DNA from: Neolentinus lepideus HHB14362 ss-1
Lineage: Eukaryota; Basidiomycota; Agaricomycetes; Gloeophyllales; Gloeophyllaceae
Assembly: GCA_001632425.1 (NCBI GenBank)
Contig: KV425565.1
Location: forward strand, 386,016 to 450,015
Length of the DNA: 64,000 bases
Reading direction: 5' to 3'
The notes under the pieces are model-generated. The model did not search any database. It had not been told where the DNA came from and worked only from the letters and a program-made list of their open reading frames with translations. Within the stretch, counting starts at the first letter, position 1. Each line of letters begins with the position of its first letter. Position numbers and translations under genes: made by a program. This document shows positions 11,747 through 15,916 of this stretch, in pieces.

Positions 11747-12073
11747 CTAAGGCTTGTCCTTCAACCCTTCCAACGCGTCTTCGAGTTTACTTCTGAGGTC
11801 CTCGACCCTCGCTCCTTGCGACTCAACATCCATCCTATCCTGCAGCTTAATTACGGCCCTTGCCTGGCGCACGAATTCGTACGATTTCTCCACAGAAGTT
11901 CTGATCTCTTCGTCACCGGCTCTGGCTTCAGGGCGACTGCAAGGTTTCTGTTCCGGATATCCAGTAGATGCCGCCAGTACTTTCGCCAAATCCACGTCGG
12001 AAGCTCTTAGAAGCGCGAGATCGCGCAACATCTCGCTCAAAGGGAGAGGACTGGCGTCAGGTTTGCCGGACAT
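11747..12073 (-). CDS. Small conserved helical protein, function unknown
   Basis: Intronless ORF of 108 aa starting at an ATG (MSGKPDASPLPLSEML). Composition and spacing suggest mostly alpha helix. An N-terminal segment has Leu/Asp patterning (LRDLALLRASDVDLAKVL) and a C-terminal segment rich in Arg/Glu/Leu (ARVEDLRSKLEDALEGLK) looks like a short coiled coil. There is no signal peptide or membrane segment. I do not recognise the family. I regard it as real because of its codon-like composition, the proper ATG, and the lack of a better reading on the other strand, which is also open. It is divergent from the chromodomain gene across ~660 bp and could share a promoter region with it. Confidence 0.6.
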   Translation of the reverse strand: MSGKPDASPLPLSEMLRDLALLRASDVDLAKVLAASTGYPEQKPCSRPEARAGDEEIRTSVEKSYEFVRQARAVIKLQDRMDVESQGARVEDLRSKLEDALEGLKDKP

Positions 12074-12733: not shown

Positions 12734-14077
12734 ATGGCTGGTCCTGTTCGAAACGCGACTCTAGCTCATGCCCCTTATTCTCGACAGTCCGAGAAGAGTT
12801 GCATCGAAATCGAAGGGCGTGTCCTGTCAGTCTCGGCTGTCTTTGATACCCTCTTCTACTGGATGGCGGAGAGAGACGCGATTCGTCGAAGGAAGTTGGC
12901 AGGAGAGGCTGCCCCCTGGACGAAGGACCATATCCTCTGCGAGTACCAATTCACGAACGTCTTTCGTGTTTTCGATCGTACCTCGCAGTATATCTTGAGG
13001 AAGGTTATTAACCAAGGCAGCCAGGATGTGTACGAGACGTGCTTCCGAGTGATGCTATTCCGCACGTTCAATCGAATCAGTACCTGGGAGCTTCTGGATT
13101 CGGAACTTGATCTGACTTGGTCGAATTTCAACTTCAATGCGTACTGTCGCGTTCTAAGCAGGGCTGATGCCCCGCTGTACGGGCACGCATACATCTTGCC
13201 CGCCCCCAATGCATTTGGGAAAAAGAGGAATTATCAGAATCACCTCCTATTGTTGCGGCACATGCTGGAGGATGGGCTACCGGAAAAGTTAATGAGCGCT
13301 GTCAGTATGCGGGAAGCACAAAGCATTATCAGTACGTACATTGGCATGGGTCCGTTTCTCAGCTTCCAGTGAGTGACCTAGATAATCATGAATTATCATT
13401 GGCGCTAATTATGAAGACTCTTGCTGGATCTTAATATGAGCGCACATTTCCACTTCTCCGAGGACGAGTGGGTCATTTGTGGCCCAGGCGCTGAAGACGG
13501 ACTCCGCAAGATCTTCGGAGATGCGGTGAAGGGAATCGAACTCGAGGTTATGAAGTACCTCCGGGACACCCAGTTCGATCATTGGGCTCGACTGGGAATC
13601 ACAGACCTTCCGCGTCTGTACGAGGGGCGTACGGGCGTCACCCTTGTTGACCTGGAGCACTCTCTTTGTGAGTGCGAGAAGTACTCCCGGGTAAAGCACC
13701 CGAGTATCAAGGGCAAACGAAAGGTCATCAAGCAAGTTTACTCTGCCAGCAAGAAATCCTTGGATCTAGTCTTACCTGAGAAGTGGACACCGCGCGGCGG
13801 TACATCCAGCGCCCCGATATTTGTCACTCATCTACCTGACGAGCCACTGACTGAACTCGAAGAGTCGGACCCCGAATATGAGGTCTCCCATATCATCAAA
13901 GAGTCGCAGTTACCGGAGGGAGGCATGGAATACCTGGTGCGCTGGGTTGGGTGGGGGCCGGAGTGGGATCTGTGGCTCCCTGAGAGTCAACTCGGCGGCG
14001 CAACTGATGTCCTAAAGGATTGGTGGGATAAACGGGGTCGTAGGCGGCGACGTTTCAAGAAGACACCACAACAGTAA
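12734..14077 (+). CDS. HMUDK_hel (5-hmdU DNA kinase helical / thymine pyrophosphorylase-like) protein with C-terminal chromodomain
   Basis: Two exons, 12734-13368 and 13417-14077, joined across a 48-nt intron (GTGAGT donor), give 431 aa. Residues ~35-305 resemble the helical domain named after 5-hydroxymethyl-dU DNA kinase, also called alpha-glutamyl/putrescinyl-thymine pyrophosphorylase-like. The seed is ERDAIRRRKLAGEAAPWTKD (46-65), then ILCEYQFTNVFRVFDR and later DLEHSLCECEKY. Phage relatives act on hypermodified thymine precursors in DNA. Eukaryotic members, known mainly from fungi, lack an assigned reaction. Residues ~365-417 form a chromodomain: EYEVSHII, YLVRWVGW, a second aromatic patch EWDLWLP, then a helix LKDWW. 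These supply the Tyr/Trp/Trp needed for an aromatic cage that reads methyl-lysine. The C-terminus is a basic patch (RGRRRRRFKK), likely nuclear targeting or DNA contact. The fusion implies a chromatin-directed DNA-modification or base-recognition role; that is inference. No partner enzyme (TET/JBP, methyltransferase) is in the window. Confidence 0.82.
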
Positions 14078-14404: not shown

Positions 14405-14602
14405 CTATTTTGGGGTAGGCTTTGAGCTGTTCTGTGGCTCGGATGAAGACCAACCCTTAATGTCGGAGGGCTTGGGCTTGGGTTTAGGCTTCCCTGCCTT
14501 GACTGGCAGACGAAGCGGTCCTCGCGGGAATGGCTTGTCGTCCTCGACAATTACTCTGTTCCATTCGAAATCATAAAGTAAATCATAAAGTTGAAGTACC
14601 AT
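14405..14602 (-). CDS. Small ORF with Lys/Pro-repeat tail, possible gene fragment
   Basis: 65-codon ORF starting MVLQLYDLLYDFEWNRV and ending in a Lys-Pro repeat (GKPKPKPKP) plus a Ser/Pro tail. The start may really be an internal exon: an upstream minus-strand stretch (MQYDEGGVKEPLLRSE, near 14690) ends at a GTACTA that could be a donor. The tail resembles that of the ORF set at 15560-15916, so the two may be diverged duplicates. No domain recognised. Confidence 0.35.
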   Translation of the reverse strand: MVLQLYDLLYDFEWNRVIVEDDKPFPRGPLRLPVKAGKPKPKPKPSDIKGWSSSEPQNSSKPTPK

Positions 14603-15559
14603 AAAGCATAGTCAGTACTAGTACTGTGTCGTGGAGGTTGCGTTCGCTTCGTAGTAAGGGTTCTTTGACTCCTCCTTCATCGTACTGCATGGGGACGTCA
14701 GTACGCCGCTCTACTGTGAGCTACGAAGATGATGGTGACAAGCCTCTTCAGTTCAAGTAGAGATGTGACTTGAAGAACGAGGCAGGAGTCTGTGTGAGAC
14801 CGCTATAGTGGGTTCAGGTCTTTTTAATGACTTCTAAACAGCGCCTAGACATGCAGAGCTTGATCTACGGGCATGAAATGTCAGAAATTTCTGAACTGCC
14901 CTTGCAAGACCCTGCAACGCCCGCAAGACTAACTATTCTCTGAGAATGCCCGGATCATTGTAATGGTATTGCCATGGGCCTTGCCATGGACTTCTAAGGT
15001 CCAAATATCACGGAATTGCCTTGTCAGGTCATGGCAAGCCAGTCTCAAGGTCCCCAAGACTTTTCCCTTGCAAGGTGAATCGGGTTTTACCGACAAATGC
15101 TATGCATGTATTGCGTTATGACCGAGTTTGCGGCGCATCGAGGCAATTTGCTCTGCTCGTTAAATCAAACAGCTGTCCGGTCGTATTCCTTTGACAGAAC
15201 ACCCATATTCAAGCCTGCATCGACCCAAATGCAGCCCTTGTATTATAAAGAGCAAAAGTTCCTGATGATTTCCGTGTGGTGCAAATGCGCGGACTTTGGA
15301 AGCAGTGTTAGGGAAACACGTGAGAGAAGTGATCGACGAATCGTTGTGACCGAGGAACGATTGAAGGGAAGAGTGCAACACTAGCAGCTCTGCAGCACCG
15401 CCATTACAATAGGCAGAACCCCGGAGAAATGTTAATAAGCGTGTAATTTATCAATAGTCCGTACGCAACAATATATAATAATCTCGAGAACAATATAGTG
15501 TCTATAATTGACACTTCAGCGTATGAAAGGTCCAAAAGAGTGAGTCTACGACTATCCTC
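14603..15559. other. Gene-free stretch with short palindromic words
   Basis: No gene supported. Near 14890-15070 there are short self-complementary words such as GCCATGGGCCTTGCCATGG and repeated CTTGCAAG, possibly a transposon relic. ORFs on opposite strands at 15097-15384 are mutual shadows. Confidence 0.3.
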
Positions 15560-15916
15560 TCAAGCTTGTTTCGTTCCGCCATTGGGTTTGGGTTTGGGGT
15601 TACCAGGCTTGGGTCCGGGCTTGGGTTTGCCTGAATCAGTTTGATTAGCAGGTCCTCTGGGTCTTATCTTTCCAGCAAATCGCATGGCCTTTCTGTTGAT
15701 CGTCTTCATCGAATACAAATCCCGCACAAACTGGATCTGCCACGCACATATCACGCCCGGTAAGTCCATAAGGAGTCTTTACAGGATTCTCCTTGTCTTG
15801 GCCATTGACAGAAAGTAATCTGGAGCTTGCTTCAGTAGGACAAGGTGGTTTCCTCAGGTGCAACGTACTTGGCTTCAACGACCTTCGCTACGCTACAAGG
15901 GACCGAGGAGAGCGCA
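15560..15916 (-). pseudogene. Lys/Pro-tailed small protein, probably frame-broken duplicate
   Basis: An upstream exon-like piece begins at an ATG at 15916 (MNALSSVPCSVAKVV) and can splice through a GTACGT donor into a clearly coding stretch (SRLLSVNGQDKENPVKTPYG, then RDMCVADPVCAGFVFDEDD). That frame stops at 15645. The overlapping frame downstream encodes KIRPRGPANQTDSGKPKPG and further Lys-Pro units, like the tail at 14405-14602. No GT donor bridges the two frames, so I infer a one-base frameshift. Alternatively the first frame ends naturally and the resemblance is coincidence. Paired Cys residues hint at a secreted protein, but no signal peptide is visible. Confidence 0.4.

Follow-up and report, generated by a model that had tools for sequence, protein, structure and literature searches.

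The window analysed here is a stretch of 64,000 nucleotides from contig KV425565.1 (positions 386016-450015; G000:C15) of the wood-decay mushroom Neolentinus lepideus HHB14362 ss-1 (Gloeophyllales, Agaricomycetes), and its plus strand carries a gene in which an HMUDK_hel domain is fused to a chromodomain. The gene has two coding exons, 12734-13368 and 13417-14077, and a single intron, and its product is 431 amino acids long. The first exon begins with an ATG at 12734 and stays open to a GT donor at 13369, encoding residues 1-211 plus two of the three bases of codon 212. The 48-bp intron (13369-13416; GT-AG, phase 2) is followed by an exon that encodes residues 212-431 and ends with the stop codon at 14075-14077; it carries the end of HMUDK_hel as well as the chromodomain. 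The corresponding NCBI model, NEOLEDRAFT_1043203 (P0001), is recorded as partial. It has 100% identity over 88% of the query and an identical splice junction; residues are numbered here on the full protein, that is, the P0001 number plus 33. A paralogue, NEOLEDRAFT_744437 (P0003; G000:C55:195173-196356, minus strand), is also an HMUDK_hel-Chromo fusion, with its intron at the same position as in the window gene.

The HMUDK_hel domain occupies residues 35-311 (12836-13714, interrupted by the intron) and scored 365.3 bits in Pfam, where the cut-off is 25, over profile positions 2-281 of 281 (E 2.7e-109). This family, PF18723, is the 5-hmdU DNA kinase helical domain, formerly named aGPT-PPlase1 and called alpha-glutamyl/putrescinyl thymine pyrophosphorylase clade 1 by JGI. 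Residues 340-362 (13799-13867) are predicted to form a flexible linker (predicted local distance difference test score, pLDDT, <50 at P0001 residues 307-329). The chromodomain follows at residues 366-417 (13877-14032) and passes its Pfam cut-off narrowly (27.0 bits versus 25.1; E 4.3e-6). All three positions of the methyl-lysine cage, whose identity we assume from HP1, are aromatic: Y366 (13877-13879), W388 (13943-13945) and W391 (13952-13954). In P0003, the chromodomain of which scores 34.7 bits, the third of these is tyrosine rather than tryptophan. The sequence of residues 418-431 is a basic C-terminal tail (14033-14077, including the stop codon).

The two domains, the cage aromatics and the basic tail had all been proposed in an earlier note, made from the DNA sequence alone, and each is present. 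That note also considered that the chromodomain exon might belong to another transcript; since the chromodomain shares the open exon 13417-14077 with HMUDK_hel residues 212-311, a separate transcript is impossible unless the exon itself is split. With Pfam at E up to 1, the only matches in the protein were HMUDK_hel, Chromo, Tudor-knot and MSL3_chromo-like; P-loop kinase domains, ADDT (PF18724) and HhH-GPD gave none, and 34 residues precede HMUDK_hel. The family label given in the earlier note agrees with the profile match, but the P-loop domain that one would expect of a kinase, as the name implies, is absent. PF18724 matched one of 50 HMUDK_hel members, with an E of 0.044.

Distribution of the fusion in mushrooms

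The HMUDK_hel-chromodomain fusion is a conserved Agaricomycete protein. A homology search returned 70 proteins, and P0001-P0049 together with P0068 were treated as 50 fungal rows. The three cage positions are all aromatic in 46 of these 50, tyrosine in some rows standing where others have tryptophan; the exceptions are three incomplete records (P0005, P0048 and P0049) and P0021, which has an odd C-terminus. When eight other fungal members were scanned with Pfam, Chromo scored above the cut-off in P0003, P0006, P0025 and P0068 and below it in P0016, P0017 and P0028, and P0021 had no match. The six species that were looked up represent the Gloeophyllales, Phallales, Jaapiales, Russulales, Hysterangiales and Polyporales, all of them Agaricomycetes. 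No named fungus that we recognised as lying outside this class was among the matches listed from a wider search (the best 120 of 325). In Lenzites betulinus, DnaJ, HMUDK_hel and Chromo are found in one 949-amino-acid model (P0072), possibly two merged gene models.

The domain fusion is already visible in precomputed Pfam annotation. The abstract of Iyer et al. 2013 reportedly mentions basidiomycetes, and the fusion may already have been noted in that paper. Among the titles and abstract openings returned by a literature search, none was recognised as describing the fungal fusion.

Twenty neighbouring open frames in the window were scanned with Pfam, and the eight with a match are all ordinary. 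Upstream of the gene, a minus-strand frame of 108 amino acids that starts with Met (11747-12073) has no Pfam match. Two short minus-strand frames downstream (14405-14611 and 15560-15778) each carry a GKPKP.. Lys-Pro repeat-like motif; these may be related small genes or just simple sequence.

Fold, conservation and ancestry of the HMUDK_hel domain

The reference for conservation was a set of 66 rows from bacteria, phages and environmental sequences, which has 50 columns with a conservation of at least 93%. On the fungal side 49 rows were used, the most divergent (P0068) being left out, and some columns hold 46-48 rows. The fungi retain 32 of the 50 columns, each in at least 90% of rows, and 18 are changed. 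The kept polar residues include R47, N75, R78, D81, Q85, R105, Q212, D216, N218, E227, D290, C296, E297 and Y301; R82 and N113 are also kept, each in 46/49 rows. Several of the changes run through virtually the whole clade. Y219, a tyrosine in 66/66 reference rows, is M in 47/49 fungal rows, and N293, likewise N in 66/66, is H in 48/48; F230 is replaced by W (49/49), Q292 by E (48/48) and F295 by L (48/48). K166 is replaced by N in 40/49 fungal rows, and K317 and K334 are lost in part of them. To judge from the alignment, these clade-wide switches look like a selected pocket with altered substrate or chemistry and not like decay, and the lost lysines (K166 and, in part, K317 and K334) would fit the loss of an anionic, phosphorylated substrate.

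The predicted fold of the N-terminal domain is mostly alpha-helical and HhH-GPD/PUGT/QNG1-like. Structures matched by the predicted model include AlkA-like, MjOgg, Mag2, AGOG and EndoIII proteins, and PUGT and HhH-GPD proteins fit it about as well as QNG1. By sequence profile, HMUDK_hel on its own had no relative in the PDB; the sole match at E up to 10, an aquaporin (E 1.9), was taken as chance.

Alignment A2 has 116 rows, and a first tree, built from 84 of them, contained six long branches (L108, P0068, L096, L092, L100 and P0064). These and 20 other rows were removed for a second tree of 58 rows. In the second tree, a branch with support 100/97 sets the fungi and 11 actinobacterial-clade rows apart from 33 other bacterial and phage rows; the 11-row group, which was picked after the first tree had been seen, has by itself a support of 89/72. 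The earlier note had assigned the domain to a family known from phage thymine hypermodification. The profile match supports the family, but the closest relatives are bacterial, not phage, as the 100/97 branch indicates. An actinobacterial-type gene set for pyrimidine modification is the probable source of the HMUDK_hel domain.

The bacterial gene sets (L004-L083) have a recurrent arrangement of ACP-like, XRE, ImmA/IrrE and TS-like genes, followed by HMUDK_hel with or without a fused deoxynucleoside monophosphate (dNMP) kinase and sometimes ending with a radical SAM gene. Of the 121 loci examined, 7 have a radical SAM gene as the first or second gene downstream of HMUDK_hel, and in P0057 a radical SAM/SPASM half is fused to HMUDK_hel. 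In a second bacterial set, HMUDK_hel is paired with TIR and Nmad2 genes. For P0003, P0058 and P0064, neither PADLOC nor NCBIfam had a match; the matches listed for P0050 and P0057 map to the fused kinase or radical SAM part (for P0057 in NCBIfam, the best 25 of 59). A relationship between HMUDK_hel and the TS-like protein was considered and rejected (E 0.17).

The predicted structure of the chromodomain has the expected fold, with a root-mean-square deviation (rmsd) of 1.3-1.4 to Chp1 and CDY1. Of the 36 Chromo matches in the genome, 30 were made into loci and entered the comparison. When a profile of the fungal HMUDK chromodomains was run against the genome, the best matches beyond the two fusion genes formed one family, led by locus L218 (46.7 bits), the domains of which (Integrase_H2C2, SH3_Tf2-1 and Chromo) are those of a Ty3/gypsy-type integrase. 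Three groups of 11, 11 and 4 loci were then compared with the fungal chromodomains, 47 of which were long enough to score. The L218 family scored best for 45 of the 47 and a second retroelement-like family for two; the remaining four-locus group was best for none. The window protein prefers the L218 family only slightly (75 versus 74 and 59), whereas P0006, P0014 and P0025 do so clearly (108-121 versus 71-77). A DNA search of the genome with the chromodomain region (218 bases) found nothing besides the gene itself. The chromodomain is short, and HP1-type genes split by introns may escape the search; for the family, capture of the domain from a retrotransposon is thus put no higher than probable.

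Possible function and comparison with known systems

The genome was also searched for partner genes. DNA_methylase gave five matches, counted exon by exon, and Thymidylate_kin one; these families were also matched in 10/14 and 13/14 control genomes, respectively. Tet_JBP and 2OG-FeII_Oxy_6 (PF12851 and PF20515) both had 0 matches, in a search without a positive control for them; the TET/JBP expansion that the earlier note gave as background was not seen in this genome. Neither the TS-like protein nor ADDT was matched, again without a positive control in the same search; ADDT did match in phage M6. The main text of a survey of fungal TET-bearing transposons (PMC12730594) makes no mention of Neolentinus, Gloeophyllum or Gloeophyllales.

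The fusion and its conservation, the predicted fold, the retained and switched residues and the bacterial sister group are direct results. In the reading that we prefer, given a rough probability of 0.4, they reflect a horizontally acquired, DNA-base-modifying HMUDK_hel enzyme that is directed to heterochromatin by a methyl-lysine reader. As a hypothesis, the earlier note's proposal of a protein that is targeted to chromatin and deals with unusual bases in DNA is coherent. The chromodomain would dock on histone H3 that carries methylation, its likeliest target being H3K9me in heterochromatin rich in transposons, and the basic tail and helical domain would hold the DNA. A flipped C5-substituted pyrimidine would then enter a single shared pocket in the helical domain, lined by R47, N75, R78, D81, Q85, R105, Q212, D216, N218, E227, D290, C296 and E297, where the base would be altered or replaced without a P-loop kinase belonging to the protein itself.

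It is possible, if doubtful, that HMUDK_hel has instead lost the ancestral reaction and only binds a modified base, making the protein a double reader of histone methylation and a DNA mark. Replacement of K166, Y219, Q292 and N293 in fungal rows, with changes in the conserved lysines and the DxQN motif, would agree with this, as would a genome in which one thymidylate-kinase match was the sole kinase partner to be found and no TS-like partner turned up (the latter search without a positive control). However, all the pocket residues named above except N218 are invariant in all 48 or 49 fungal rows that have a residue at the position (P0068 not included), and the invariance of these 12 residues exceeds the usual need of a binding platform. 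An enzyme acting, like QNG1, on a free (deoxy)nucleotide, for example to remove or salvage a 5-substituted pyrimidine base, with the chromodomain serving only for positioning, seems unlikely: a chromodomain and basic tail would be odd in an enzyme for soluble nucleotides, and the DNA-acting PUGT and HhH-GPD proteins match the fold about equally well.

The latter matches, to the AlkA-like, MjOgg, Mag2, AGOG and EndoIII structures, together with the five DNA methyltransferase-like stretches in the genome, would suit an HhH-GPD-like DNA glycosylase that excises 5-hydroxymethyluracil (5hmU), bases derived from 5-hydroxymethylcytosine (5hmC) or deaminated bases in heterochromatin, for repair or active demethylation. 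Such an activity is quite unlikely, since Pfam at E up to 1 shows no HhH-GPD domain in the protein and the Asp/Lys that HhH-GPD enzymes use for catalysis was not located. The Ty3/gypsy integrase type to which the chromodomain is closest in 45/47 rows might even point to a gene that descends from a retrotransposon, or is decaying, and plays no part in the cell. This is highly improbable for a gene with an intact frame, two paralogues that share an intron, members in all six orders looked up and a chromodomain region that has no second DNA-level match in the genome.

If the fungal protein does alter DNA bases, basidiomycetes would have a chromatin-directed DNA modification, with an enzyme drawn from bacterial, possibly anti-phage, gene sets, and prokaryotic base hypermodification would be linked with eukaryotic heterochromatin. 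A more specific version, which we regard as rather unlikely, is that a bacterial enzyme of pyrimidine modification, probably anti-phage, was domesticated in mushrooms and joined to a retrotransposon's chromodomain, and that it now serves to place or remove an unrecognised heterochromatic base mark that restrains transposons. This would be a eukaryotic chromatin-guided base modification outside cytosine-5 methylation, TET/JBP and base J. Even a protein that only reads would represent a new reader fold for modified bases.

Among known systems, the HMUDK_hel family, with members such as those of Bacillus phage SP10 (F8WQ30) and Delftia phage PhiW-14 (C9DG43), has the profile score, the retained polar residues and the fold in common with the window protein. 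P0050 and P0054 carry a P-loop kinase, as the SP10 protein presumably does from its name and 637-amino-acid length, whereas the window protein has none and adds the fungal-specific switches and the chromodomain. The actinobacterial genes, tree sisters of the fungi (100/97), resemble the fungal protein in having the helical domain without a fused kinase but lack a chromodomain. Their neighbours are TS-like, ImmA/IrrE and XRE genes, and the full trio is present at L004, L005, L020, L022 and L025; in the fungal genome the TS-like partner was not found (without a positive control). PUGT, the 5-PmdU glycinyltransferase of phage PaMx11 (8z2m), which is grouped with ADDT/aGPT-PPlase2, is 9% identical to the window protein, which lacks a PF18724 match at E up to 1. 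Human QNG1/DUF2419 (7ugk) is 12% identical, and its substrates are queuosine nucleotides rather than DNA.

The combination of a chromodomain with a DNA-base enzyme is found in DNMT5, a fungal chromodomain DNA methyltransferase, and in plant CMT3, which has the same design; in both, the catalytic domain is unrelated to that of the window protein. The DNMT5 chromodomain engages H3 (PMC13297926). The chromodomains of Chp1 and CDY1 (3g7l and 6v41) share the fold and the aromatic cage of the window protein at ~35% identity. These are structural matches, and within this genome the fungal family is closer to the Tf2-like integrase chromodomains.
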